Of a stretch of 64,000 nt of DNA, positions 2,966-15,390 are shown piece by piece; the first letter of the stretch is position 1, and every line of letters begins with the position of its first letter. The notes beneath the pieces were generated by a model. It saw nothing but the letters and a program-made list of their open reading frames with translations. It had not been told where the DNA came from and ran no database searches. The DNA comes from Cryobacterium tagatosivorans (GTDB lineage: Bacteria > Actinomycetota > Actinomycetes > Actinomycetales > Microbacteriaceae). The position numbers were made by a program, and so were the translations under genes. The stretch lies in the NCBI RefSeq assembly GCF_004402215.1, contig NZ_SOEZ01000079.1, forward strand, positions 62,001 to 126,000, given 5' to 3'.

Positions 2966-3490
2966 GTGCAAACTTTCGTGGTCGCAGGTGGATGTTTCTG
3001 GTGTCTTGACGCCGTGTATCGAGTGTTGCGGGGGGTGAGCGACGTCGTCTCCGGTTACACCGGCGGCGAGGTCCCCAATCCCAGCTATGAGGCGGTGTGC
3101 ACGGGCCGAACTGGGCACGCGGAGGCCACGGCGGTGACGTTCGACCCCGAGGTCATCCCGGCGGACGTGATCCTGGACGTGTTCTTCACCCTCCACGACC
3201 CGACCCAGCTGAACCGGCAGGGGGCCGACGTCGGCACCCAGTACCGGTCGGCGATGTTCTACGCGGACGAGGAGCAGAAGCGGCTCTTCGAAGCGGCGCG
3301 GGAGCGCGCCAACGGCTACTGGGACGGCGGAATCGTGACCACGATCGAGCCGCTCGGCGAGTATTACGTCGCCGAGGACTACCACCAGGACTTCTTCGCG
3401 AAGAACCCGGGCCAGGGCTACTGCATGGCGGTCGCCCTGCCCAAGGTCAACAAGATCCGCAAGTCGTACTCGCAGTACATCGTCGCGTAG
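2966..3490 (+). CDS. msrA: Peptide methionine-S-sulfoxide reductase
   Basis: MsrA reduces methionine-S-sulfoxide in oxidised proteins. The 174-residue product begins MQTFVVAGGCFWC, with the GCFW nucleophilic cysteine at residue 10 and another at 13. A later Cys in GQGYCMA may be the resolving residue. The family core (GYTGGEVPNPSYEAVCTGRTGHAE) and the HDPTQLNRQG segment are intact. Translation starts at GTG. A TACTCT box at 2954-2959 ends 6 nt before it, suggesting a leaderless message. It is divergent from the aldo/keto reductase with almost no spacer. Confidence 0.95.
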   Translation: MQTFVVAGGCFWCLDAVYRVLRGVSDVVSGYTGGEVPNPSYEAVCTGRTGHAEATAVTFDPEVIPADVILDVFFTLHDPTQLNRQGADVGTQYRSAMFYADEEQKRLFEAARERANGYWDGGIVTTIEPLGEYYVAEDYHQDFFAKNPGQGYCMAVALPKVNKIRKSYSQYIVA

Positions 3491-3759: not shown

Positions 3760-3830
3760 ATGACGAGTGACACCATGACCCTGACGGGAGTCGTGGCGAC
3801 GACGCCGCGCCACCTGGTCACGAGTTCCGG
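3760..3830 (+). pseudogene. 5' fragment of an ssb paralogue, disrupted by the integrated element
   Basis: The frame from the ATG at 3760 reads MTSDTMTLTGVVATTPRHLV then TSSG. This is the N-terminus of an actinobacterial single-stranded-DNA-binding protein (the MTLTGVVAT..PRH start is characteristic). A second in-frame ATG lies at 3775. After base 3830 the frame enters element DNA and loses similarity. The rest of the gene is at 13181-13580. Bases 3760-3830 plus 13181-13580 give 471 nt, a complete 156-codon ORF. The integrated state therefore separates the start codon from the OB-fold. Confidence 0.9.
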
Positions 3831-3850
3831 CGCAATAGTTTCTATAAGGA
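3810..3850. other. attL, left junction of the integrated element
   Basis: Chromosomal ssb sequence ends in ...CACGAGTTCC, then GG at 3829-3830, then element sequence CGCAATAGTTTC. Compared with the right junction, only the GG dinucleotide is shared. Large serine integrases exchange strands across a 2-bp overlap, so GG is the likely crossover. The boundary is inferred from restoration of the ssb frame. Confidence 0.82.
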
Positions 3851-4010
3851 TAGTTCCCCCCCAGTTCTGGGGTGCTCCAGTGTGCTGCACCGATGATGTG
3901 GCCCAATACAAATCACGCCGGCTTTTCGATTCGAGGCCCAAACGTGGCTCAAACGCCCTTCTCTACCAGTACTGTGGCTCAACTGCTGTGCAAGGTAGAG
4001 GAGTCAAAAC

Positions 4011-4730
4011 TTGTCAGACACTGCCGTAGAGACAAAGAAGTCCCTGGTTCCAAAATGGGAGCAGCTGGCGCGCGACGAGGTTCGAGCTTCGATTCGCAAG
4101 TTCACTAAGCCCCTGCAGGATCTCGTGAAGCGCGATGCCAACGAGGGGGACACTCGGCTACTCGTGACTGACATGCTCTGTTACGGACTGGGCTATGACA
4201 AGTTTGACGATCTGACAACCGAGTATGCGGTCCGAGGCGAGTTCGCTGACTACGGGGTTCGCATCGACAAACAGCTCGTGGCTTTCATCGAGGTTAAGCG
4301 GGCGACTCAAAAACTGCATGCTCGCCACCTGCGCCAGGTCGAGACATACGCGGTGAAGGAAGGCTTGGAGTGGATAATCCTCACAAACGGTCAGGTCTGG
4401 CAGGCCTACCACGTCCAAGCTGCGACGGGCCAAAAGGTCGCCACGCATCTCGCGTTCGAGGTTGATCTGCTGAGTGATGAAACGCCTACACGGAAGACAG
4501 AGGCCCTTTTCCACCTTCATCGATCGGCCATGAAGAAAGGCCTGATCGATGCGCTGTGGCGGCGCAAAGCGGCGACATCCGCACCCGCGATGGCAGCGAT
4601 TCTCTTGTCACCGCCCGTTCTTGATGCTGCGCGCAAGGAGATCCGTCGGAGCAGCGGATACAACCCGGATCTTGACGAATTGGCAAGGATAGTTCGCGCC
4701 GAAGTCCTCAAGGCTGAGCTTTTCATATAG
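4011..4730 (+). CDS. HsdR N-terminal-domain (PD-(D/E)XK) nuclease-like protein
   Basis: This 239-residue protein resembles the N-terminal domain of type I restriction R subunits standing alone. The nuclease core is visible: an early Glu (TTEYAVRGEF), Asp in YGVRIDKQLVA, then FIEVKRA, the D..EVK pattern of this fold, followed by a helix with HLRQVETYAV. ILTNGQVWQAYHV is also typical of HSDR_N domains. There is no helicase or methylase partner. Start is TTG at 4011 with a GGTAGAGGAG-type RBS. It lies beside attL on the strand opposite to the element's main operon, the usual place for accessory cargo. A role in defence is inference. Confidence 0.7.
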   Translation: MSDTAVETKKSLVPKWEQLARDEVRASIRKFTKPLQDLVKRDANEGDTRLLVTDMLCYGLGYDKFDDLTTEYAVRGEFADYGVRIDKQLVAFIEVKRATQKLHARHLRQVETYAVKEGLEWIILTNGQVWQAYHVQAATGQKVATHLAFEVDLLSDETPTRKTEALFHLHRSAMKKGLIDALWRRKAATSAPAMAAILLSPPVLDAARKEIRRSSGYNPDLDELARIVRAEVLKAELFI

Positions 4731-4748
4731 CAATCAGATTGGACCGTA

Positions 4749-5195
4749 ATGACTCAGGATGAGATAGCGCTTTGGGTTCAAGTGGCTGCCGTGCTCGCGG
4801 CCGTAGGCGCGTCAATCGTCGCACTGGTCATCTCCGCTAAGGATCGAAATGCTGCCCACTTCATTGCCGCGGAAGACCGTAAGTTCGCTCAGCGACACAG
4901 CAAGCTCATGTTCGAGCTCGAAACGCTCGTCAGATTGCTTGAGAATCGGAACCGGGGAGGATCGACCGATCGCGAGGAGTCAAGTCGAATGGGCGCCGAA
5001 GCGCTCACCTTGGTTGGCTTGATCGGGCCTGAGCGGCTTCCGCGACAGTGGGAACGCGCCGTGTCAATGTCTGACGAAGGATTGCGGCAGCTTCAGGATG
5101 ATGCGGGGTTTCCGCAGTACAAGAGAGATGCAATCGAGACACAACTCGCGGTGAGCGCCGTCGTGGCCGAGATCAGAATCATCAATGACCGTTAG
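4749..5195 (+). CDS. Membrane-anchored hypothetical protein, cargo partner
   Basis: A 148-residue protein 18 bases downstream of the nuclease-like gene, so probably cotranscribed with it. It has one N-terminal membrane helix (about residues 8-29, VQVAAVLAAVGASIVALVI) and then a charged helical region that may form a coiled coil (residues 35-70). I recognise no family. It uses the otherwise rare arginine codon AGA at least three times, unlike the chromosomal genes around the element, which fits foreign origin and the element's own tRNA-Arg(UCU). A single-pass protein paired with a nuclease is a common shape for anti-phage modules, but that is speculation here. Confidence 0.6.
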   Translation: MTQDEIALWVQVAAVLAAVGASIVALVISAKDRNAAHFIAAEDRKFAQRHSKLMFELETLVRLLENRNRGGSTDREESSRMGAEALTLVGLIGPERLPRQWERAVSMSDEGLRQLQDDAGFPQYKRDAIETQLAVSAVVAEIRIINDR

Positions 5196-5209
5196 ACAGT
5201 CGCGAATTG

Positions 5210-5241
5210 CGCCCCCGTCATCCGTGAGGACAACGGGGGCG
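5210..5241. terminator. Bidirectional terminator-like hairpin
   Basis: A perfect 9-bp stem (CGCCCCCGT at 5210-5218, ACGGGGGCG at 5233-5241) with a 14-nt loop lies between the plus-strand cargo pair and the end of the leftward element operon. There is no clear U-tract. Confidence 0.55.
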
Positions 5242-5336
5242 TATCGGCGCTGGTAGGTCATAACCCGGAACGTAGCTCGCTACCATCCATCCGGCACGCC
5301 ATCGTGCGCGGTGAGGTTCACGCCGAGCTAGTGGGG

Positions 5337-5603
5337 TCAGTCCCAGGCGCGGTCGGCCTTCGCGCGTGCCAACACGTCCGGGTCGCGCACTTCGCCAGTG
5401 GTGACGAGCAGTCGCGCCGCCTGAATGGTGCCCAACAGGCCGAAGATGCCGCTGGGGTGCTTCTCGTGCCGCCAGTACGTCAGATACTCCACCCGCCATG
5501 CTGCGAACGCCTCCACGGGCGGCTGGGGCCACTCTGAGAGGTCAAAGCGCGTCATGGTCGCCGGGTGATCCTCGAGGCCGTTACGGCGCTTACGGACAAC
5601 CAT
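5337..5603 (-). CDS. Hypothetical phage-type protein downstream of terS
   Basis: This 88-residue product is the last gene of the leftward operon. Its ATG at 5603 overlaps the terS stop codon, so it is probably translationally coupled. The second part, MTRFDLSEWPQPP onward, is rich in Trp and Phe and has a RVEYLTYWRHEKHPSGIFGLLG segment; an alternative start is the internal ATG at 5555. No cysteine motif or membrane helix is present and I know no function. Its position beside a small terminase suggests a packaging or morphogenesis accessory role, which is inference only. Confidence 0.6.
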   Translation of the reverse strand: MVVRKRRNGLEDHPATMTRFDLSEWPQPPVEAFAAWRVEYLTYWRHEKHPSGIFGLLGTIQAARLLVTTGEVRDPDVLARAKADRAWD

Positions 5604-5953
5604 CAGCGGGACTGCTTGCCATACACACGGCGGCTAGCTGATGGGTCATCCTCGAGCGCAGGAATGCCCAGCATGACCAGCAGCCGAGCAAGGGCCAGAC
5701 GCTGCTGGCGACCTTCGCTCACGGCCGGGTGCACGCGGCTGCCCTGGGAGCTGGGGAGCATGAGGCCCTCGTCCTCCACAGCCTTATCAAGCTGCACGAT
5801 ACGGTCACGAGTGCGGCAAGATTCCTCGAGGATTGCTAACTCATGGTCCGCCCAGGAGAATTCATCCGTAGCGGCATCCCACAACCTGCGGCCCGCGGCG
5901 TTCAAATTTCGGGGGGTTTTGACGCCCTTTCCAGGGCCGTTTGAATCGGTCAT
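5603..5953 (-). CDS. Phage terminase small subunit, P27-like
   Basis: The small terminase recognises the packaging site on phage DNA and hands it to the large subunit. The 116-residue product from the ATG at 5953 (RBS GGAGC upstream) has the P27-type pattern: an N-terminal LNAAGRRLWDAATDEF helix, then HELAILEESCRTRDRIVQL, then HPAVSEGRQQRLALARLL and a short C-terminal tail. The longer frame back to 6052 lacks similarity and an RBS. No large terminase is present in the element, so the protein could only work with a helper phage's motor. This is the strongest evidence for a satellite lifestyle. Confidence 0.82.
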   Translation of the reverse strand: MTDSNGPGKGVKTPRNLNAAGRRLWDAATDEFSWADHELAILEESCRTRDRIVQLDKAVEDEGLMLPSSQGSRVHPAVSEGRQQRLALARLLVMLGIPALEDDPSASRRVYGKQSR

Positions 5954-6123
5954 ATCTGCTCCAATGCTGGTGTTTATGTGGGATGTGGCCTTGAAGGGCC
6001 AAACGTGGATTCTCCGTGTGTACAAATTGCGCCTACGTCGCCCGAGGCGCAAAAGGGGTGCTTGGGGTTATACGCCCTATACCCCTGCGCCCCGTCCGAA
6101 AAGGCACTCGGGCGGCGTGTGGC

Positions 6124-6366
6124 CTACTTCCGGGGCAGTAGGTCGTTCTCGGTTTGTCCTGCCGGTAGTTGGGCGATGGCGGTGATGGGTCGCCCGTCGC
6201 TGAGTCGCGGCATGATGTGGAGTTCCATCTTCACGCCGTGCACGTTGCGCTGCTTCGAGCGTTCAATACCGATGGGCACTAACTCGGTGTTGATCGTGCC
6301 GTCCGGGTTGCGGGGCAGGTATGGGTATGTTCCATCGGTGCCGGGGTCGGTGATGTCGTGTGCCAT
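6124..6366 (-). CDS. Hypothetical phage protein, 80 aa
   Basis: An 80-residue protein whose ATG overlaps the stop of the upstream 169-aa gene (TAATG), so the two are coupled. It begins MAHDITDPGTDGTYPYLPRN and is Pro/Gly/Asp-rich at the start, then turns into a beta-rich segment (VHGVKMELHIMPRL) ending in a hydrophilic tail. There is no signal peptide or membrane helix. I recognise no domain. It is followed by about 170 bases without a gene before terS. Confidence 0.55.
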   Translation of the reverse strand: MAHDITDPGTDGTYPYLPRNPDGTINTELVPIGIERSKQRNVHGVKMELHIMPRLSDGRPITAIAQLPAGQTENDLLPRK

Positions 6367-6875
6367 TACTTCCCCTGGTCGAGGTACGCGGCCGCTGTCT
6401 CGGCGTCGTCGATGTCCGGCTCGAGGTACGGGGCGATCGCCGTGTTTGCGTTGGCCTCGATCGCTTTGTGCAGGTTCGAGTCAATGAAGTCGCTGAATGG
6501 CTGCTGCCGGTATTCGATGTTGGCGGTGGTGTGCGGTTCGCGGCGTAGGAGGTTCGCGGCGCCTTGTGCGTCTGAGCGTGCGCGGGAGCGTGCCGCGCGT
6601 GCGCCGAGGTAGCTGACGAACCCTGAGTAGGCGGCGTTGAGGTCGCCGGCGATTGCTGCCGCGACGGCTTCCCCGTATTGCGCGTCTCCGATCCGGGCGA
6701 GTTCAGCCTCGAGTGCGGGGTTGGCGTCGAATACTTTCTGTGCCCGTGCGGCTTGTGCCGTCTGGATGAGGGCTGCCTGTTCTTTCTGTTCGGCCTGCTC
6801 TTGTGCTTCGAGTGCTGCGAGTGCTGCGCGAAGTTCGTCGGCGGTGGCGGGCGTGGTGGTCTTGGCGGTGGTCAT
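6366..6875 (-). CDS. Hypothetical phage protein with N-terminal coiled coil
   Basis: A 169-residue soluble protein. Residues 10-50 are Ala/Glu/Gln-rich (ELRAALAALEAQEQAEQKEQ) and look like a coiled coil. The rest is helical with an aromatic patch (EYRQQPFSDFIDSNLHKAIE) and an acidic C-terminus. The composition resembles small phage scaffold or head-assembly proteins, but no diagnostic motif is present, so this is only a suggestion. Both ends overlap neighbours by TAATG junctions, placing it in the coupled operon that leads to terS. Confidence 0.55.
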   Translation of the reverse strand: MTTAKTTTPATADELRAALAALEAQEQAEQKEQAALIQTAQAARAQKVFDANPALEAELARIGDAQYGEAVAAAIAGDLNAAYSGFVSYLGARAARSRARSDAQGAANLLRREPHTTANIEYRQQPFSDFIDSNLHKAIEANANTAIAPYLEPDIDDAETAAAYLDQGK

Positions 6876-7105
6876 TAGTTGTCCTTCTGGTTGAGTTCGG
6901 TCAGTGCTGCTTCGGCGTTGTCTGCGTAGCCGGCGCGCAGTAGGGCGTTGGTGGAGAGCGTGAGTCCGGCTTTCAGTGCCTGGTCGATCTGCGCGCGGTC
7001 CTCTGCCACTGACTTGGTGTAGGTCTTGGCGATGGAGGTAACGCGGCGGTTGCGGCGGATGCCTTCTGCTTCGTTGTCCTCGGGGTTGGTGTAGGTGGTG
7101 CTCAT
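6875..7105 (-). CDS. Hypothetical phage protein, 76 aa
   Basis: A 76-residue hydrophilic protein beginning MSTTYTNPEDNEAEGIRRNR. The second half (LKAGLTLSTNALLRAGYADN) looks like a small helical bundle and may bind DNA or a terminase, though no established motif can be named. A GGAGACACC RBS precedes the ATG, which also overlaps the stop of a 48-codon ORF upstream. Confidence 0.55.
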   Translation of the reverse strand: MSTTYTNPEDNEAEGIRRNRRVTSIAKTYTKSVAEDRAQIDQALKAGLTLSTNALLRAGYADNAEAALTELNQKDN

Positions 7106-7248
7106 GGTGTCTCCTTGATTCGTTGGTCTGGCAGGGTGGGGTGGATCTCGGGTGGCCGGGTGAGTTTCAGTCGGCGGCCGCGCTTGCGGTTGTGGCTTTT
7201 GCGCTTGGCGGTGGGCCAGGTGGGGCCGCTGTACGGTCGGTAGCTCAA
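7102..7248 (-). CDS. Small basic protein, 48 aa, coupled
   Basis: A frame of 48 codons starting at a TTG (7248-7246) that overlaps the stop of the preceding 11-codon ORF. It ends in a TGA overlapping the ATG of the 76-aa gene. The product is strongly basic (AKRKSHNRKRGRRLKL in the middle), as in small nucleic-acid-binding proteins. The TTG start makes it uncertain. The exact filling of an otherwise empty gap between two coupled genes is the main support. Confidence 0.4.
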   Translation of the reverse strand: MSYRPYSGPTWPTAKRKSHNRKRGRRLKLTRPPEIHPTLPDQRIKETP

Positions 7249-7280
7249 CAGGGCACCTCGAGGTCGTCGGGGTTGGTCAT
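7245..7280 (-). CDS. Possible 11-codon coupled peptide
   Basis: An ATG at 7280 overlaps the upstream stop (ATGA) and encodes MTNPDDLEVPC before TGA. It may be a real micropeptide or simply a translational relay that carries ribosomes to the following TTG-started ORF. Confidence 0.25.
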   Translation of the reverse strand: MTNPDDLEVPC

Positions 7281-7564
7281 GGGGTTTTCCTTCCGGGGGT
7301 GATCTTGATTCGTAGTCCGCGCTCGTCTGGGTCTACGAACACTTGCCAGCCTTCGAGCGTGAGTGAGGCGAGCGCCCGGAGTGGTTCGCTGGTGAGAAAG
7401 TTGGTTGTTGCGTGGTAGTTTTCGATCCCTTCGCCGGTTTCGGTGCGGGGGTAGTGGAGCCATTTGGGGCGCTGGTTGAGGTCGTCGTGCAGGCCGAGCT
7501 CGTGGAGCGTGAGGAGGGGCCCGTGGTCGGTGGGCCATCCGTCGATCCTTGATGAAATGCTCAT
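7277..7564 (-). CDS. Hypothetical phage protein, 95 aa
   Basis: A 95-residue protein beginning MSISSRIDGWPTDHGP, whose ATG overlaps the stop of the S74 gene (ATGA). The second half (LRALASLTLEGWQVFVDPDERGLRIKI) has the alternating pattern of a small alpha/beta fold, and the GWQVFVD..GLRI segment is beta-like. No known motif or membrane helix is visible. Position directly after a tail-fibre-like gene could mean an assembly accessory protein, but nothing in the sequence proves it. Confidence 0.55.
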   Translation of the reverse strand: MSISSRIDGWPTDHGPLLTLHELGLHDDLNQRPKWLHYPRTETGEGIENYHATTNFLTSEPLRALASLTLEGWQVFVDPDERGLRIKITPGRKTP

Positions 7565-8262
7565 GCGGTCGGCCCGGCCTCGAGCGCGGTTACGCGCCTG
7601 TTGATCTGCTGCAGGAGCGGGATGATTCCGACTGCAAGGCGCTCATAGGCGATGCCGAACGGGGCACCTTCGCTGTCGTAGTTGACGAATGCTCCGAGGC
7701 CGGCTGCATGGAACTGTTCAGCGATGCCGCCGATGATGTACGGGGCGTTGTCGCCGTGCAGGTCGGTTTCTGCTGTGTAGCGGAAGTCGACAATTTCGGC
7801 GTCGAGGATGCTGTGTGGGTCGAATACCGTTGGGCGGATGTCTTGCTTGAAGCGAGCCGATGAGGGGACGTGACCAATGCGCCCGTCGTCGGTGGTGGCG
7901 TACGTGGCGAAGTAGTTTGACGTGAGGACTGTGACCGGCACGCTTGGCACCCGGAGCGCACCGTCCACCGTGAGATCGCCGCCGACTGTTACGTCTGTGC
8001 CGAAGTGCCCAAAGCCGGTTGCGGTCACGTTGCCCGTATTTACGGCCGTGGACATTGCGGAATCGACCTGGGCTTGTAGGTCGTTGAGCAGCCCTGCCAG
8101 TTGTTCCTGCTGGGTGGTGAGCGCGTCCACGGTCGTCTGAAACGATTTGGCGATGGAGGGGCCGAGTTCGGTCACGAACCGCTCGAGGTCGCGCATCTTT
8201 CGCAGCTGCGTGTCTTCGCTTGCGGGCATCCGTGAGCCGATTGAACCTGGCTGAAATGACAT
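7561..8262 (-). CDS. Tail-fibre-like protein with C-terminal S74 autocleaving chaperone domain
   Basis: A 233-residue protein. Residues 20-75 form a coiled-coil-like helix. A short beta-helical stretch follows (VTATGFGHFGTDVTVGGDLT). The last 100 residues match an intramolecular chaperone (peptidase S74) domain: SSARFKQDIRP carries the Ser..Lys pair used for self-cleavage, followed by VDFRYTAETD, IIGGIAEQ and YERLAVGIIPLLQQINRRV. Such domains trimerise and then cut themselves off phage tail fibres and spikes. There is no other tail gene in the element, so this would have to decorate a helper's particles. An RBS (CGGAGT) lies inside the upstream 23-codon ORF. Confidence 0.75.
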   Translation of the reverse strand: MSFQPGSIGSRMPASEDTQLRKMRDLERFVTELGPSIAKSFQTTVDALTTQQEQLAGLLNDLQAQVDSAMSTAVNTGNVTATGFGHFGTDVTVGGDLTVDGALRVPSVPVTVLTSNYFATYATTDDGRIGHVPSSARFKQDIRPTVFDPHSILDAEIVDFRYTAETDLHGDNAPYIIGGIAEQFHAAGLGAFVNYDSEGAPFGIAYERLAVGIIPLLQQINRRVTALEAGPTA

Positions 8263-8265
8263 GTG

Positions 8266-8337
8266 TTACTCCGTTTCGATCTTGGTTGGTGGGGTGGATG
8301 TTGCTTGCGTCGTGCGTAGTGCGCTGATCGCGGTCAT
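8266..8337 (-). CDS. Possible 23-codon coupled micro-ORF
   Basis: An ATG at 8337 overlaps the stop of the ATPase gene (ATGA) and encodes MTAISALRTTQATSTPPTKI plus three residues before TAA at 8266. Its last codons contain the RBS of the S74 gene. It may be a relay peptide keeping ribosomes on the operon; no independent evidence of function. Confidence 0.3.
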   Translation of the reverse strand: MTAISALRTTQATSTPPTKIETE

Positions 8338-9809
8338 GCTGCGGCCCGTGCGTCGGTGTGTGCGGCGTCGGTCTTGCCGCAAATGCCGATCGCTTTGGAC
8401 TGCGGGGCGAACAGGGGAGCGGCGCAAACGCGGCAGGCAGGCTGCCCGGTTTCGGTGCCAGATTTTGCAGTAGGTACCCGTAAGCCTCCGTGCCCCTTAT
8501 CTAGGGGTTGGGTAGGTACTGCAGTTTCTGGCACCGAATTTTCGGGGTGCTGTGTGGGGGGTGCAGAATCTGGCACCGCTTTTTTGGGGTCGAGGGCGTC
8601 CGGTTCAATGTCGTCCCTGAGCGTGTATCGCCAGATCGTCACGTCTCGCCCAGCGTTGTTCCCTTCGCTCTCATCAACTGAAAGAACGTTGAGCATGTGG
8701 AGTGCCTGCAATTCGCGGTCAACGGTCGCCCTCGGCATCCCCAAACGCTTGCGAACATCCGAGGTCGAGCTGTCAGGGTTCGCTGAAACGTCATCGATGA
8801 TGCGCAGCCGAATAGGTGGCATCGAGTCGCGGGCGCATCTGATGGCCAATCTCAGGGCCGCGGTGCGGTCGATGCCGATAGCCACGGACCCGCGCACGAT
8901 CTGCGTGAGCTGTTTGGCGAACCTGGTGGGCATCTCCGGCGCGTGCGCGTCGATCACGTCGCCCCGGTAGTCACGTTCTACGGCGGTGCGTGCCAGCGTC
9001 ACGAGGTCGGCCGCTGCGAGCAGCGCGTCTGTTTCGGCATCCGTGACGGCGATCCCCGCGGTGTTGATTGTGCCCATGAGGGTCGCGACGGACTCGGTGA
9101 GTTCAGAGCGCATCTGCTCTTCGTGCCCGGTGTTTCCGATAGCTTGCCGTCCGGCTGAACGTCGCCCGGTCGTCGAGTCCATCCGCACGAGCACGAATCT
9201 GTCGCCCATCGAGGCGATGACCGCGTGAGCCTTGTCCCAGGCTGTCGTTACTGCCCCGATGATGACGAGTCGCCCCGACCATTCGAGCGTTTGCCCGCCG
9301 TCCGTCCCGACGTTTCTTGACCACACTCCGTCGTAGACCTCGCGCATCGCACCGAGCACGCTTGCCCGCTGGTCGCCCGACATCGAGAGGATGCTTGTCA
9401 CGTCCTTGATGACGATAATTCCCCGGTCGCCCATCTTCCGCAGGAGCCCGCCCGTAGCGTCCTCCGATCGCTCTTTGCGGGAGGTGCCAGAGAGCAGCGC
9501 TCCCTCCGATGCGATGGTGGAAACGATGGTGGCCCCGATGGCGGCGAGCGATCCGACCGTCTCCGTCTTTGCGTTGCCCGATCCTGAGATGACGAGCAGC
9601 CATACAGGGTCGCCGTCGAGTTGTTCGCATGCCGCCGTTGCTAGTACCGCGTCGAGTGCGTCCGTGTCGTATGCGTCACCGAGCCAGCGCTTGAATGCCG
9701 CGTGCGCGTTCTCTAGCGCGACTGCGGGCGCTTGCTGGTTGGCGTCCTGCCGTGCCTTCACGGTGGCTTGTGCGGCGTCTGAGCCTGGTTCTACGGTGGC
9801 CCACGTCAT
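8334..9809 (-). CDS. AAA-type ATPase, probable replication helicase of the element
   Basis: A 491-residue protein. A P-loop-like region is at about residues 73-82 (VISGSGNAKTET): the usual glycine before the lysine is Ala and the first P-loop glycine is Ser, so this is a variant Walker A. A hydrophobic strand ending in Asp (GIIVIKDVTS, about 132-141) fits Walker B. A winged-helix-like part is seen near SDVRKRLGMPRATVDRELQA, and a Cys-x2-Cys ... Cys ... His zinc-type cluster lies near the C-terminus (CRVCAAPLF, GICGKTDAAH). This architecture is common in actinophage and plasmid replication proteins. It is the largest gene of the early-type operon and sits close to the DnaA boxes. Confidence 0.7.
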   Translation of the reverse strand: MTWATVEPGSDAAQATVKARQDANQQAPAVALENAHAAFKRWLGDAYDTDALDAVLATAACEQLDGDPVWLLVISGSGNAKTETVGSLAAIGATIVSTIASEGALLSGTSRKERSEDATGGLLRKMGDRGIIVIKDVTSILSMSGDQRASVLGAMREVYDGVWSRNVGTDGGQTLEWSGRLVIIGAVTTAWDKAHAVIASMGDRFVLVRMDSTTGRRSAGRQAIGNTGHEEQMRSELTESVATLMGTINTAGIAVTDAETDALLAAADLVTLARTAVERDYRGDVIDAHAPEMPTRFAKQLTQIVRGSVAIGIDRTAALRLAIRCARDSMPPIRLRIIDDVSANPDSSTSDVRKRLGMPRATVDRELQALHMLNVLSVDESEGNNAGRDVTIWRYTLRDDIEPDALDPKKAVPDSAPPTQHPENSVPETAVPTQPLDKGHGGLRVPTAKSGTETGQPACRVCAAPLFAPQSKAIGICGKTDAAHTDARAAA

Positions 9810-10111
9810 TCGGCACCCCCGTTGTAGATCGCTCGCCGTGTTGCATCCAGCTCGACGTGCGATGGGCCGATGATGATTGGCTGCCGGGGGTTGAATGCGG
9901 CGTTGTAAAACCTGTCGCGGTCAGCGGCGCATTGCTGCAGCTCGTGCGCCATGACAGCCATGCCGTCCGTGTGCCCGATGGAGTAAAAGCCCATGAGTGC
10001 CGGCGTGAGATCCTCGAGGCGGATCTCGCCAGACTTGAGCCGCCATAGAGCCGAATCAAGTGCCTTCTCGACTGTTGCGCCGACTTTGTGTGTGTCATGC
10101 GTTGCGCTCAA
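9806..10111 (-). CDS. Hypothetical phage protein, 101 aa
   Basis: A 101-residue soluble protein started at TTG (10111), overlapping the stop of the 43-codon ORF upstream and ending in an ATGA overlap with the ATPase gene. The N-terminal half is helical (VEKALDSALWRLKSGEIRLE); the rest contains HTDGMAVMAHELQQCAADRDR. No motif is recognised. Being coupled directly before the ATPase, it may act with it in replication, which is inference from position only. Confidence 0.55.
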   Translation of the reverse strand: MSATHDTHKVGATVEKALDSALWRLKSGEIRLEDLTPALMGFYSIGHTDGMAVMAHELQQCAADRDRFYNAAFNPRQPIIIGPSHVELDATRRAIYNGGAE

Positions 10112-10239
10112 TCAGATGCACCCCCAACAGTCGCGGGGGAGAATCCGGCAAACGCGGCCGTGATCGTTTCGCGCTGTTCCGGGGTTAGCGGGTGAGCAGA
10201 GGCGACGATACGGCTGATGTATTCCTGAGCGGCGCTCAC
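10108..10239 (-). CDS. Small coupled protein, 43 aa
   Basis: A 43-codon ORF with GTG start at 10239 overlapping the stop of the HTH gene (GTGA). It ends with TGA overlapping the TTG of the next gene. The product, MSAAQEYISRIVASAHPLTP then EQRETITAAF..., is a plausible small helical protein. Tight overlap at both ends is the main evidence. Confidence 0.5.
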   Translation of the reverse strand: MSAAQEYISRIVASAHPLTPEQRETITAAFAGFSPATVGGASD

Positions 10240-10466
10240 AGGGCATCGCTGGCGAGCGGGCGACCAGCGGAGTTGAGGCTGGTGAGGTTGACCCGTATGA
10301 GTCGCGGGCCGAACCGTTCAGCCTGCACGAGTCCCTGGGTGATGTATCGGCGCATCGTCTGCACACTGACAAATCGCAGGGCTGCTGCTTCCTGGATGGT
10401 GCCCCATTCGACAGGGGGCGAGACTTCCTGAGTGCTGCTCGATCGGCGGTATGTAGAGTGGTCCAC
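10236..10466 (-). CDS. AlpA/excisionase-like helix-turn-helix protein
   Basis: A 76-residue protein from the GTG at 10466, chosen because AAAGGA sits 8 bases upstream; longer in-frame extensions back to 10709 run through the origin-like region and look non-coding. The core WGTIQEAAALRFVSVQTMRRYITQGLV is a MerR/excisionase-type winged HTH in which the second helix reads the DNA and AERFGPRLIRV forms the wing. In integrative elements such proteins steer excision or switch on the replication operon. It is the first gene of the leftward ATPase-S74-TerS operon, fitting either role. The serine integrase would need a recombination directionality factor and this is a candidate. Confidence 0.72.
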   Translation of the reverse strand: MDHSTYRRSSSTQEVSPPVEWGTIQEAAALRFVSVQTMRRYITQGLVQAERFGPRLIRVNLTSLNSAGRPLASDAL

Positions 10467-10498
10467 TAGATCGTCCTTTCGCGAGGTTTCGGTCAAAG

Positions 10499-10529
10499 CG
10501 TGGGGCTCGAGGTAGGACTCGGCCCCACG
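10499..10529 (-). promoter_or_regulatory. 5'-UTR hairpin upstream of the HTH gene
   Basis: A perfect 8-bp stem (CGTGGGGC at 10499-10506 and GCCCCACG at 10522-10529) with a 15-nt loop lies about 35 bases before the HTH start on the transcribed strand. It has only a weak T-run after it, so an attenuator, operator or RNA stabiliser are all possible. Confidence 0.4.
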
Positions 10530-10636
10530 CGTCTTTGTGTCGGTGGCTTTGATTGGTACTTGTGAGTTATGAAGTATTTCTCCTGACCACAAGTGCTTAA
10601 TTTGAGGTTGACGCATGCCGTGATAGAACGCAAACA

Positions 10637-10693
10637 CGCCTGTGGATAAGGCTGTCGAAACTCGACGTCGTAGGTATGTTCGCCTGTGGATAA
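10637..10693. repeat. Two 13-bp direct repeats, each holding a perfect DnaA box
   Basis: CGCCTGTGGATAA occurs at 10637-10649 and 10681-10693, 44 bases apart. Each contains TGTGGATAA, the exact complement of the DnaA box TTATCCACA. AT-rich DNA follows on the right. The placement between the regulator and the replication operon fits a replication origin of the element. Confidence 0.6.
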
Positions 10694-10868
10694 CCGCTTT
10701 TCTTCGCACATCTCCAAATTATTTCTAGGATTGTGGCGTGACGGTGGAGCGCGGAAAGACGCCGAAGTGTGGCCCCAAATGGGGGTCAATGAGTTACTAA
10801 CAGCGTGGGACCAAAGGTTTTTTGTGCCCTTTGGGTAAATCGCCCCATAACGGCAGTATCGCGGACAC

Positions 10869-10919
10869 GAAAACGCCCCCGGCGTCTGAATCTCAGACAC
10901 ACGGGGGACGCGATTTTTT
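10869..10919. terminator. Bidirectional rho-independent terminator
   Basis: A GC-rich nested hairpin (CCCCC at 10876-10880 with GGGGG at 10903-10907, inner GTCTGA with TCAGAC) is flanked by AAAA on the left (10869-10873) and a run of six T on the right (10914-10919). It can therefore stop transcription in both directions: downstream of tRNA-Arg leftward and out of the origin region rightward. Confidence 0.7.
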
Positions 10920-10920
10920 G

Positions 10921-10993
10921 TCTCGATGGGAGGACTCGAACCTCCGGCATGACGGGTAGAAACCGCCTGCTCTGTCCACTGAGCTACATCGAG
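10921..10993 (-). tRNA. tRNA-Arg (anticodon UCU), element-borne
   Basis: A complete cloverleaf can be drawn on the minus strand: acceptor CTCGATG/CATCGAG (7 bp), D-stem GCTC/GAGC, anticodon stem GGCGG/CCGTC with loop TTTCTAC (anticodon TCT), T-arm GGAGG TTCGAGT CCTCC. CCA is not encoded (the strand reads ACAA after the acceptor stem), unlike the two chromosomal tRNAs in this window. It would read AGA codons, which are rare in high-GC hosts. It sits between the regulator and the terminator. Confidence 0.93.
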
Positions 10994-10997
10994 GGGT

Positions 10998-11025
10998 GCC
11001 CCGGCCCACTTTCGCAGGCCGGGGC
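10998..11025 (-). terminator. Hairpin between the Cro/C1-like gene and tRNA-Arg
   Basis: A perfect 9-bp stem (GCCCCGGCC at 10998-11006, GGCCGGGGC at 11017-11025) with a 10-nt loop follows the regulator gene. No U-tract; it may also act as a processing signal for the tRNA that begins 5 bases later. Confidence 0.5.
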
Positions 11026-11040
11026 GTTGTCGAGCTTGGG

Positions 11041-11277
11041 TTAGGCGGCTACCGGCGCGGCCGGCTCGCTGAACAGGACGGCGAACGGGATGTTCAGATG
11101 CTCGGCGATCTTCATAACGTTGGAGACCTTGAAATCAGACAGGCCGGCGAGGTGGCGGCGCAAGGTTGTGCGCGGGATGCCTGTTGCCTTGGCAAGAGGG
11201 AGCAATGCAACCCCTGCGGACAACCTGGCGGCTTCCATCCTGCGGGCGACTGTTGCCGAGGCAGCGGAGGCGGCCAT
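11041..11277 (-). CDS. Cro/C1-type HTH regulator
   Basis: A 78-residue protein from the ATG at 11277, which overlaps the stop of the upstream gene (TGATG); the longer frame to 11337 has no similarity. LPLAKATGIPRTTLRRHLAGLSDFKVSNVMKIAEHLNIP is an XRE helix-turn-helix, with GIPRTTLRRHL as the recognition helix region. The protein is nearly all DNA-binding domain with no oligomerisation or protease domain, so it may be a Cro-like repressor or an activator. It is cotranscribed behind the integrase and a hypothetical gene and probably controls the leftward operon beyond the tRNA. Confidence 0.75.
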   Translation of the reverse strand: MAASAASATVARRMEAARLSAGVALLPLAKATGIPRTTLRRHLAGLSDFKVSNVMKIAEHLNIPFAVLFSEPAAPVAA

Positions 11278-11666
11278 CAGAGCGCCGCCCCTTCGGTGGT
11301 GAGCGCGTCCATGCGGTCGGCCATGCTGCGGAGCCATGCGGGGAATGCTTCGTACTCCGTGGCGGCGGTTCTGAACTCATCGGCGGTCATGGTGCCGTCG
11401 CCCTCGAAGGCGATGTCGCCCTCGAATCGTCCGGAGCAGTCAGAGATGGAGGCTTTGACGATACCGCCGTCGAAGGTGGCGTTTACGGCTTCGTGCGACC
11501 AGTCAGCAACGGGGGCGTAGAACTCGTGGCCGTTGCCGGTGCAGTCGATGTACTTGCACGGGGTCTCCCGTGCCTGGATAGCAAGCCGCTCGTTTTCGGC
11601 GTCTGCGATTGCCCTGTCCACTTTTTCTGAGTCGGTCAGGGGCTTGTGGATTACGCTGGTGTTCAT
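11277..11666 (-). CDS. Hypothetical element protein, 129 aa
   Basis: A 129-residue acidic protein. The ATG at 11666 (MNTSVIHKPL) was chosen because AAAAGGAAT lies 7-9 bases upstream. It begins with a helical segment (DSEKVDRAIADAENERLAIQ), contains CKYIDCTGNGHEF with two cysteines that could bind a metal, then a beta-rich part (FDGGIVKASISDCSGRFEGD) and a helical end. I know no homologous family. It is coupled to the HTH regulator and follows the integrase. Confidence 0.55.
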   Translation of the reverse strand: MNTSVIHKPLTDSEKVDRAIADAENERLAIQARETPCKYIDCTGNGHEFYAPVADWSHEAVNATFDGGIVKASISDCSGRFEGDIAFEGDGTMTADEFRTAATEYEAFPAWLRSMADRMDALTTEGAAL

Positions 11667-11748
11667 ATCGATATTCCTTTTCATTGTGTATCGGTATTGC
11701 CCCCGAGCTTTTACGGGTTTCGGGGGCATCTTTCATAACTGCCAGCGA

Positions 11749-13149
11749 CTAGGGCGCGGCAGCTACATCTTGGGGTGAGTGCGTCAACTCGATCACTACA
11801 TCCTCGGGACGGAATGCGTTGTTACCTCCGCGTTTGGTCGGCATTATCGTCACAGTCATTAGGGCGCTCACGATACGGCGCTTGTGCTGAATTGAGAGAG
11901 TGCCACGCCAGAACGCTTCGACGCTCTCAGCGGTCACGAGATCCGACAGGATGGTGCCTCCCTCAATGGCCCCGAGCTGTGCCTGGAGAGCGTCGACGCG
12001 GGCCTGCAGCTTGATCTTCTGCTCTCGAACCGACGCGGCGCTGAGTGTGCCGTCGGCGTAGAGTTCGGCGAGCCCACCGATGAGCGCACGCACCTCCTGT
12101 GCCTCTTCAGCGAGCGCAGCAGCATCCCCGGTGGGGGTGAGCAGCGAAACCGCGTCAGGGCGGCGCAGGAGGGCCAGCACGACCCCCTCGACGAGCGCGT
12201 CGACGTTGGCCATGTTGCGGCGCGTGTCGAGCCCCCGGCATTGGTAGACGGGCGTGCGCTTCCCGCTCTTGAAGTCGCGTGTGACATCCATGAGCCCGCC
12301 GCACTTGCCGCAGCGATAGATGCCGCTGCCCAGGTACTTGATCTTCTTCGACCAGTCCTGCCGAACGCGGCGCGATGCTACGACCGTCTGGAAGCGGTCC
12401 CATGTTGGCCGGTCGATGATTGCGGGCCAGCTGCCCGCCTCGGTCACGACATCGCCTAGATATGTGCGGATGCCAGCTAGGGCAGGGTTGCTCGCGCGGT
12501 GGGTCAGGTTCTGGTAGCTGTAGGGCTTGCCGTTAGCCGCGACGATGCCGCGGGTCTTGTAGTCCTTGGCGATCGAGTACCACGATTCCCCGGCGATGAT
12601 CCTGTCGACGGCCTCCCGCAGAATCTCGGCCTCTGCCTCAACAATTCGCACCTCGCCGTCGACGCGCTCATATCCGAGCGGGCGCGTGGCAAATGACCAG
12701 ACACCCGCGTTAGCTCGCTGAACGTTCGCGGCAACCTGGCGAGCGCCCTTCTGCTCGACCTCGTAGCGGGCAGCAGCTCCGAGCATTTGCGCCATCATTC
12801 GCCCGGCAGGGTTGTTTAGGTCGAGGTCGCCAGCCTTGACCGTGAGGATCCGGAGGGCGTGCTTCTCTGCCAGCTCGACCAGCTCGACCAAATCACGCAC
12901 GCGGCGGTAGAGCCGGTCTGTGTGCCAAACGATGATCGTTGATACCTGCCCGCCCCTGATCGCGGTCAGCAGCTCTTGGAATGCGGGCCTGGTGCCCTTC
13001 GACGCTGACACGTCATTGTCGACAAACTCCCGCGAGACTGTGCGACCGTGGCGCTCGGCCAATGCGCGACACTCGGTCAGTTGCCGGCCAACGGCAGCCC
13101 CTTCGCCGTTACGGTCGAGGGATTGGCGGGCGTAGATAACAGTGGACAT
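11749..13149 (-). CDS. int: Large serine recombinase, element integrase
   Basis: This 466-residue protein performs site-specific integration. The N-terminal resolvase domain starts MSTVIYARQS, with the catalytic serine at residue 10 and the arginine-rich active site (WHTDRLYRRVRDL). The recombinase domain follows at about residues 170-270. A zinc ribbon (CGKCGGLMDV ... VYQCRG) then precedes a coiled-coil-bearing C-terminus. The size fits the shorter end of large serine integrases. Its start codon is only 30 bases from the attR core, as usual for these phages and islands. No internal stop or missing active-site residue is seen, so it is likely functional. Confidence 0.93.
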   Translation of the reverse strand: MSTVIYARQSLDRNGEGAAVGRQLTECRALAERHGRTVSREFVDNDVSASKGTRPAFQELLTAIRGGQVSTIIVWHTDRLYRRVRDLVELVELAEKHALRILTVKAGDLDLNNPAGRMMAQMLGAAARYEVEQKGARQVAANVQRANAGVWSFATRPLGYERVDGEVRIVEAEAEILREAVDRIIAGESWYSIAKDYKTRGIVAANGKPYSYQNLTHRASNPALAGIRTYLGDVVTEAGSWPAIIDRPTWDRFQTVVASRRVRQDWSKKIKYLGSGIYRCGKCGGLMDVTRDFKSGKRTPVYQCRGLDTRRNMANVDALVEGVVLALLRRPDAVSLLTPTGDAAALAEEAQEVRALIGGLAELYADGTLSAASVREQKIKLQARVDALQAQLGAIEGGTILSDLVTAESVEAFWRGTLSIQHKRRIVSALMTVTIMPTKRGGNNAFRPEDVVIELTHSPQDVAAAP

Positions 13150-13159
13150 ATCGACATAC

Positions 13160-13200
13160 TACTGAGGCAATTACCGCGGGACTGGCCATCACGTCGTTCC
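13160..13200. other. attR, right junction of the integrated element
   Basis: Element DNA ends ...CAATTACCGCG, then GG at 13179-13180, then chromosomal ACTGGCCATCACG, the continuation of ssb. The predicted attP flanks (TACCGCG before GG and CGCAATA after it) show partial dyad symmetry, as integrase sites do. Confidence 0.82.
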
Positions 13201-13580
13201 GGCTGGCATCCGGGCAGCGCAGGTTCGACCGCAAACGCAACGCCTGGGTGGATGCTGATCCGAACTGGTACACCGTGTCCTCCTTCCGGCAGCTGGCGCA
13301 CAACGTCGTGGCCTCGGTCCGGAAGGGACAGCACGTGATGGTGACCGGCAGGCTGCGTGTGCGCGACTGGGAGAACGCGGATCGCAACGGCACATCGGTC
13401 GAAATCGAGGCGGACGCGATCGGCCACGACCTCACCTGGTGCACGACGGCATACTCGCGCAGCGCGCCGGCGGCCCAGCCCGCGCCCAAGCCCGTGCCCC
13501 AGGACGACGCGGGAAGCGACCGGGGAGATGAGGCAATCTCCGACCCGGAGGCGCCGAGGCTCGCGACCCTGGAAGCGTGA
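13179..13580 (+). pseudogene. 3' fragment of the split ssb paralogue
   Basis: From 13179 the frame reads GLAITSFRLASGQRRFDRKR, then NAWVDADPNWYTVSSFRQLA and VTGRLRVRDWENADRNGTSV, a near-complete SSB OB-fold lacking its first 24 residues. The acidic tail is short and lacks the DDDxPF-type tip of the housekeeping SSB, as usual for a paralogue. Upstream in the element there is a stop at 13137 and no ATG, so in the integrated state translation could only begin at an internal GTG (13248) and would lose the first two strands. It lies directly before ettA. Confidence 0.9.

Positions 13581-13707: not shown

Positions 13708-15390
<1,683 letters not shown>

Follow-up and report, generated by a model that had tools for sequence, protein, structure and literature searches.

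What becomes of a host whose second gene for single-stranded DNA-binding protein (SSB) is cut in two by an integrated element, and does the split act as a switch or as an inactivation? The question is raised by a 64,000-nucleotide stretch of Cryobacterium tagatosivorans (contig NZ_SOEZ01000079.1, positions 62,001 to 126,000; hereafter the window), in which an element carrying a large serine integrase interrupts the SSB paralog gene ssbB. The reading that we favor, and consider likely, is insertional inactivation of natural transformation by a phage-satellite-like element whose integrase belongs to a target-switching lineage.

In the proposed mechanism, the integrase uses a conserved ssbB codon as attB and thereby breaks the gene, and its lineage would have repeatedly switched attB among the natural-transformation genes of this actinobacterial order, namely, those of the Tad/Flp uptake pilus (flp, tadA, and tadC), the channel gene comEC, and the processing genes dprA, comM, and ssbB. 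The host would lose transformation or lose efficiency in it, and the element would gain by escaping deletion through incoming homologous DNA ("chromosomal curing"). If the element were excised with the help of a directionality factor, the gene would be regained exactly, as a by-product and not as a host switch.

Structure of the split ssbB locus

The window holds msrA, the first 71 bases of the ssb gene, 9,350 bp of foreign DNA, the rest of ssb, and ettA, in this order:

2966..3490, + strand, msrA, left flank, an open reading frame (ORF)
3760..3830, + strand, left fragment of ssbB, including the start codon
3829..3830, + strand, attL core GG, the sole bases in common with 13179-13180 in the in-frame register
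3831..13180, integrated element, 9,350 bp (single GG copy counted)
13179..13180, + strand, attR core GG
13181..13580, + strand, right fragment of ssbB; the earliest ATG, GTG, or TTG of its open frame is GTG at 13248
13708..15390, + strand, ettA (ABC-F), right flank

Joining 3760-3830 to 13181-13580 at GG gave an SSB of 156 amino acids (aa), and in that register the bases flanking GG differ between the two ends (C/G before, C/A after). In the same genus, an ssb ortholog was uninterrupted upstream of ettA in all 29 loci read, which were the best-scoring ones (an ssb match was present in 56 of 57 genus genomes), and an msrA match lay within the short locus in 10 of them. All 29 intact relatives have the spacing at the break codon that the GG join gives, ..VTxxG/LAI.. 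(the slash marks the join). The site reads ..GTCACGAGTTCCGG/TTTGGCCATC.. in the nearest relative, G024, and ..GTCACGAGTTCCGG/ACTGGCCATC.. in the window after joining. An alternative join sharing CCG was rejected, as it adds one codon seen in none of the 29 relatives.

The original prediction of a ~9.35-kb element that splits an ssb paralog between msrA and ettA, inserted by a large serine integrase at a shared 2-bp GG core, was thus borne out, and no intact ssb with a codon spacing at odds with the GG join was encountered among the 29 loci. The spacing in these relatives supports the accompanying claim that excision across GG would restore ssbB exactly and in frame. Two details are corrected here. 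The ATG was said to be removed by the element; it stays on the left fragment, separated from the remainder. Likewise, the integrase gene has its start (13149) and not its end next to attR, at a distance of about 30 bases. Its 466-aa frame is intact and not decayed.

The interrupted gene is an SSB paralog, the second ssb rather than the main one, which the host keeps elsewhere as an open frame of 168 aa on contig C68. The possibility that the host has another whole copy of ssbB was rejected, since apart from the main SSB the search showed just a third, weaker match. The position beside ettA, we assume, recalls that of SsbB in mycobacteria. Among the matches listed in a survey of 398 genomes of the family, only that of the window begins beyond residue 5; the row of genome G415, a second interrupted ssbB copy, lies outside those listed matches.

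The same ssbB codon in other genera

A search for other elements at the same ssb codon, proposed with the original prediction, yielded two. In G415, from another genus of the family, a 55%-identical integrase adjoins the same ssbB codon, and the far end of the element lies beyond the contig start. In Leifsonia aquatica H1aii, a 64%-identical integrase lies in the same codon in reversed orientation; its element measures 16,438 bp, and ettA lies past the far end.

Read from the integrase side, attP is GACATACTACTGAGGCAATTACCGCG-GG-CGCAATAGTTTCTATAAGG in the window and GAAATAGTAGTCACAACACCACCGTG-CC-CGCAATAGTTCCTAGACAACC in Leifsonia. The half-sites resemble each other, most closely in the far-side bases adjoining the core, and the cores are complementary (GG versus CC). 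For Bxb1, orientation is reported to depend on the central dinucleotide alone (Ghosh 2003, as cited in PMC3783163), and in another phage system polarity was switched (Smith 2004, as cited in PMC3783163). A single attB has thus served in both directions, in agreement with this rule.

Related integrases often adjoin broken transformation genes

The target survey was prompted by pieces of tad, com, and dprA genes first seen beside related integrases, and it covered relatives of the window integrase in two samples. The family sample of 398 genomes gave 56 integrase matches at E ≤ 1e-40, and all 56 were examined. The order sample of 396 genomes, searched after the pattern had been seen, gave 33 matches at E ≤ 1e-50, of which 28 were new and 26 were examined (G607 and G712 were left out). 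Breaks were mapped by tblastn (E ≤ 0.01) at the integrase 5' end with the host TadA, TadB, TadC, Flp, TadE, TadF, ComM, and DprA, the truncated ComEC of the host, and SsbB of G024 as references; the 3' sides of integrases that did not pass were covered by this break mapping only. L065 duplicates L038 and L066 duplicates L037, L074 covers L064, L067 and L068 were left out, and L175 has 149 bp of flank only.

A break in a transformation gene (ssbB, flp, tadA, tadC, comEC, comM, or dprA) was found beside 46 of the 82 related integrases compared to about 0.24 expected, a figure that assumes random insertion with the reference genes as ~0.29% of a 3.5-Mb genome and is a guide only, the binomial figures ignoring kinship. 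The family sample contributed 28 of 56 (ssbB 2, flp 5, comEC 1, tadC 10, tadA 6, comM 2, and dprA 2) and the order sample 18 of 26 (tadA 10, tadC 3, and comM 5), so that transformation genes are enriched among the targets, with tadA, tadC, and flp the commonest (34/46). The breaks lie at about a dozen separate places over the seven genes, and those in tadC, tadA, and comM occur in both orientations. The association fades as integrase distance grows: in the family sample, 20 of the 21 best-scoring integrases passed, as did 22 of 29 at E ≤ 1e-50 and 6 of 27 above 1e-50. An initial view of the ssbB and flp groups as two chance targets was rejected and superseded by this survey.

Pfam searches with the longer pieces agreed (ComEC 5e-35, T2SSE to 1e-36, T2SSF, Mg_chelatase 1e-86, ChlI, and DprA_WH); two of the loci counted as tadA, L136 and L174, were without a Pfam match. 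The flp label rests on protein size and place before tadE, the Tad pilin-like protein receiving no name from Pfam or NCBIfam. L180 (E 0.006) and L048 (E 0.001) are counted within the 46; kept outside are the by-eye calls L161 and L168 (tadC), L172 (pilin-like), and L158/L159 (tadZ-like), and the sub-cut-off RcpC match of L178. L158 and L159 are identical integrase loci on two contigs (G359:C3 and C4), beside a fragment with sub-cut-off ParA-type matches that is TadZ-like by eye.

Elsewhere, the related integrases of L049, L055, L056, L059, L061, and L149 adjoin the end of HNH-like genes (labeled by motif or by eye), and the four HNH-like targets scanned had no Pfam match. L145, L146, L148, and L153 are near-identical integrases from four genomes; L148 adjoins a gene for a luciferase-like monooxygenase (Pfam 6e-17), as L145 and L146 also appear to do.

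The far side was fetched in eight genomes with elements on long contigs, and the missing gene part was found there in six:

comEC, G177, gap 16.0 kb
tadA, G129, gap 12.1 kb
flp, G330, gap 16.3 kb
tadC, G174, gap 12.0 kb
tadC, G164, gap 12.2 kb
dprA, G354, gap 31.8 kb

With ssbB in the window and in Leifsonia, both ends were read for 8 elements in all. The tad locus of G164 is split twice, tadA by 15.1 kb and tadC by 12.2 kb (G164:C1:1784090-1800299 and 1801171-1814250).

Integrase phylogeny

In an integrase tree of the quick kind, with target labels assigned by eye, the window integrase groups with those of ssbB and flp (8 rows, support 98), and the next grouping adds the dprA and comEC integrases (11 rows, support 97). 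Integrases with HNH-like and other targets cluster, mostly in other groups. No fewer than 24 switches of target label are required on this tree, or 9 if the labels are reduced to "transformation" and "other." The integrase fragment closest to that of the window, L045 (G329:C165; 75% identity over 151 aa), lies in flp and not in ssbB. No GG stands at the expected core of L045, which may use another one.

comEC in the host and the genus

The host ComEC frame begins just before SGANC, without the N-terminal part, and has 558 aa versus 700 to 1,416 aa in most relatives. A part matching the missing ComEC N-terminus of G024 (80%) ends at the same place on contig C79 and is followed by other DNA, and the two breaks, at L195:4927 (G000:C70) and L199:1261 (G000:C79), share GG. 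Host comEC is thus probably split as well, with a join that would span the contig gap, and two transformation genes of the host apparently each hold an element. Searching with Pfam for the N-terminus of ComEC turned up only matches below cut-off, one of which proved to be the N-terminal part. A 577-aa frame, serine recombinase-like by eye, lies 2.4 kb from the C-terminal part.

In the genus, comEC of G030 and G020 is truncated at the same SGANC residue as in the host (L209 and L218), and short comEC frames occur in G004, G043, and G016, judged by frame length alone. Read from positions only, comEC is split over 27 kb in G008 (C1:180032-208587) and over 22 kb in G042 (C1:1349069-1372170).

Gene content and class of the element

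The following features were assigned within the window element:

3831..3848, + strand, attP half-site far from the integrase, CGCAATAGTTTCTATAAG; Leifsonia counterpart CGCAATAGTTCCTAGAC
4011..4730, + strand, HSDR_N-like protein, 239 aa (phrog_17239, 3e-51)
4749..5195, + strand, hypothetical protein, 148 aa, no confident family
5337..5603, - strand, hypothetical protein, 88 aa
5603..6052, - strand, terminase small subunit (terS)-like protein, 149 aa (phrog_1496, 2e-16; Pfam and NCBIfam matches below cut-off)
7561..8262, - strand, 233-aa protein with a C terminus similar to tail/minor head proteins
8334..9809, - strand, 491-aa protein, P-loop-like by eye (possibly a replication ATPase)
9806..10111, - strand, hypothetical protein, 101 aa, with a 42% relative (67 residues) in both Agreia elements
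10236..10709, - strand, Xis/AlpA-like helix-turn-helix (HTH) protein (phrog_66, 0.009; Leifsonia-element relative 63% over 51 residues)
11041..11337, - strand, repressor-like HTH protein, 98 aa (phrog_4583, 1e-10)
11277..11729, - strand, hypothetical protein, 150 aa, with 28-29% relatives in the Leifsonia element and one Agreia element
11749..13149, - strand, large serine integrase, 466 aa (Resolvase 2.6e-30, Recombinase 4e-11; best match to a family of phage integrases, phrog_95 3e-92)
13153..13178, + strand, attP half-site beside the integrase, GACATACTACTGAGGCAATTACCGCG; counterparts GACATAGTAGGCACACAACTACCGAG in G415 and GAAATAGTAGTCACAACACCACCGTG in Leifsonia

The integrase combines resolvase, recombinase, and weak zinc-ribbon domains in one protein (the zinc ribbon scored 20.7 bits, under its cut-off of 25.3) and has an identical 2-bp core at attL and attR, as expected of a large serine integrase. 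Among the matches listed, the closest phage integrases are those of Kumao (37% identity) and prophiGD54-2 (36%). The Xis-like protein is a candidate directionality factor. In the Leifsonia ssbB element, a phage metallo-protease-like protein (ImmA-like; phrog_87, 2e-20) is encoded at L074:12408-12980, where the window element has the small repressor-like HTH gene.

The element is most likely a phage satellite. Satellites of the phage-inducible chromosomal island (PICI) type are small and carry integrase, repressor-like, Xis-like, and terminase small subunit-like genes. The window element is likewise small and has genes of all four kinds, and the ORFs scanned with Pfam and PHROG included none for a capsid, a portal, or a large terminase; the terS-like match is present, yet so is one tail-like C terminus (that of 7561..8262, presumably S74-like). 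Unlike PICI, it encodes the 491-aa protein, which had no match in Pfam, PHROG, NCBIfam, PDB, or phage records. Relatives of this protein (53-74% identity) were found in 11 IMG/VR contigs, 9 of them <16 kb, and two of the stretches fetched around such relatives carry a related integrase; the IMG/VR contigs L238 and L239 had no match to any reference transformation gene.

Comparison with known systems

The attB genes of Bxb1, phiC31, and A118/LI differ from ssbB. In domain order, 2-bp core, and a core dinucleotide setting orientation, the window integrase is like these (PMC3783163). The closest biological parallel is provided by prophages of pneumococci and Streptococcus mitis that sit at attB-comYC and attB-ssbB and disrupt a competence pilus gene or a second SSB gene, and the resulting loss of transformation is thought to shield the element from deletion by transformation (PMC12637031 and PMC4774983). 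In the pneumococcal case, the integrase tree was consistent with separate evolution of an integrase for each competence-inhibiting site, followed by spread to sites where an effect on DNA uptake is not expected (PMC12637031). Here, in contrast, one actinobacterial serine-integrase lineage is found at seven genes of the pathway.

As targets elsewhere, comM is interrupted by mobile genetic elements in Pseudomonas syringae and Francisella, and pneumococcal comEC by a mefA cassette (PMC4774983). Competence-gene-breaking elements are known from streptococci, Lactococcus, and some Gammaproteobacteria (PMC4774983 and PMC12637031); "actinobacteria" is not mentioned in the main text of PMC4774983, and no report of this pattern in Actinobacteria was found among the titles and abstract starts listed from the open-licence literature.

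Of the targeted genes, tad clusters and comEC are required for transformation in Micrococcus luteus: mutants in tad were left without Flp complexes and could no longer be transformed, apart from a deleted ORF considered nonessential and a mutant with residual low-level transformation, and deletion of comEC abolishes transformation (PMC4322843). Natural transformation has also been described in two freshwater Microbacteriaceae (PMC11577799).

Alternative explanations

The gene could be subject to a regulated split, as the original prediction suggested, in which the element excises under some condition or developmental state and returns SsbB on demand. The skin element splits sigK and a prophage splits comK, and both genes are restorable in frame. 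The window resembles these by sequence, with an exact in-frame join, an intact integrase, and an Xis-like gene. A regulated switch is nevertheless not supported, because a gene hit by site-specific insertion is always exactly restorable; moreover, the gene is simply intact in the 29 relatives read, and related elements target different genes, so that, unlike in the sigK and comK cases, the pairing of element and gene is not conserved, and nothing in the sequence ties excision to a host program. Even transient restoration of the gene would let transformation resume, as argued for pneumococci (PMC12637031), and we regard a regulated split as quite unlikely. Neutral target choice, by which the integrases would enter conserved, dispensable coding sequences resembling attB, transformation genes being dispensable, is unlikely. 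Around the core, the ssbB and flp sites do resemble each other (GG followed by a Leu codon and then by GTN or GCC), so that a move between them may need little change, and the fragment closest to the window integrase lies in flp. Many other genes should be equally conserved and dispensable, however, and the dozen or so break places over seven genes share only the pathway. The predominance of tadA, tadC, and flp would also fit superinfection exclusion through the removal of Tad pili that serve as phage receptors; since ssbB, comEC, comM, and dprA are not pilus genes yet fall within the same integrase tree, and the ssbB, flp, dprA, and comEC integrases make up the single supported group of 11, this explanation is very unlikely.

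From the pattern across the pathway, the simplest account would be the same conflict as in pneumococci, run by one integrase lineage. Several observations weigh against the inactivation of transformation as we propose it. The 36 of 82 loci that fail, mostly with lower-scoring integrases, include the HNH-like and luciferase-like targets, and related integrases are not independent samples. Some rows are weak: L138 and L142 lie 330 bp and L048 133 bp from the integrase, L180 is the match at E 0.006, the alignments of L143 and L176 reach within 13 and 10 residues of the TadC end, and the break of L045 was called by eye. The left ssb piece in Leifsonia has just 23 codons and a weak match (tblastn E 0.003), and the far end of the comM elements of G081 and G060 was not reached within ~6 kb beyond the integrase. 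The tad genes, dprA, and comM could have other functions. The presumed role of ssbB in transformation in this order is the weakest link, "ssb" being absent from the main texts of three M. luteus papers, and a literature search found no transformation assay of this host.

Implications

Beyond the inactivation itself, we lean toward the view that what the lineage has specialized on is a host pathway and not a particular site. The members that match best would retarget freely and nearly always within the transformation machinery, and the attB list would amount to a natural genetic screen that marks ssbB, comM, dprA, and the Tad pilus as parts of DNA uptake. The GG/CC pair in ssbB is a naturally occurring example of orientation set by the core dinucleotide, and integrases with many mapped attB sites would be supplied. 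A single lineage at seven genes would be strong comparative evidence for a "chromosomal curing" conflict in a phylum with little-studied transformation. If true, the finding predicts which Actinobacteria are or were transformable, assigns ssbB and the Tad pilus to the transformation pathway in an order with few species tested, and makes the role of ssbB in transformation testable.

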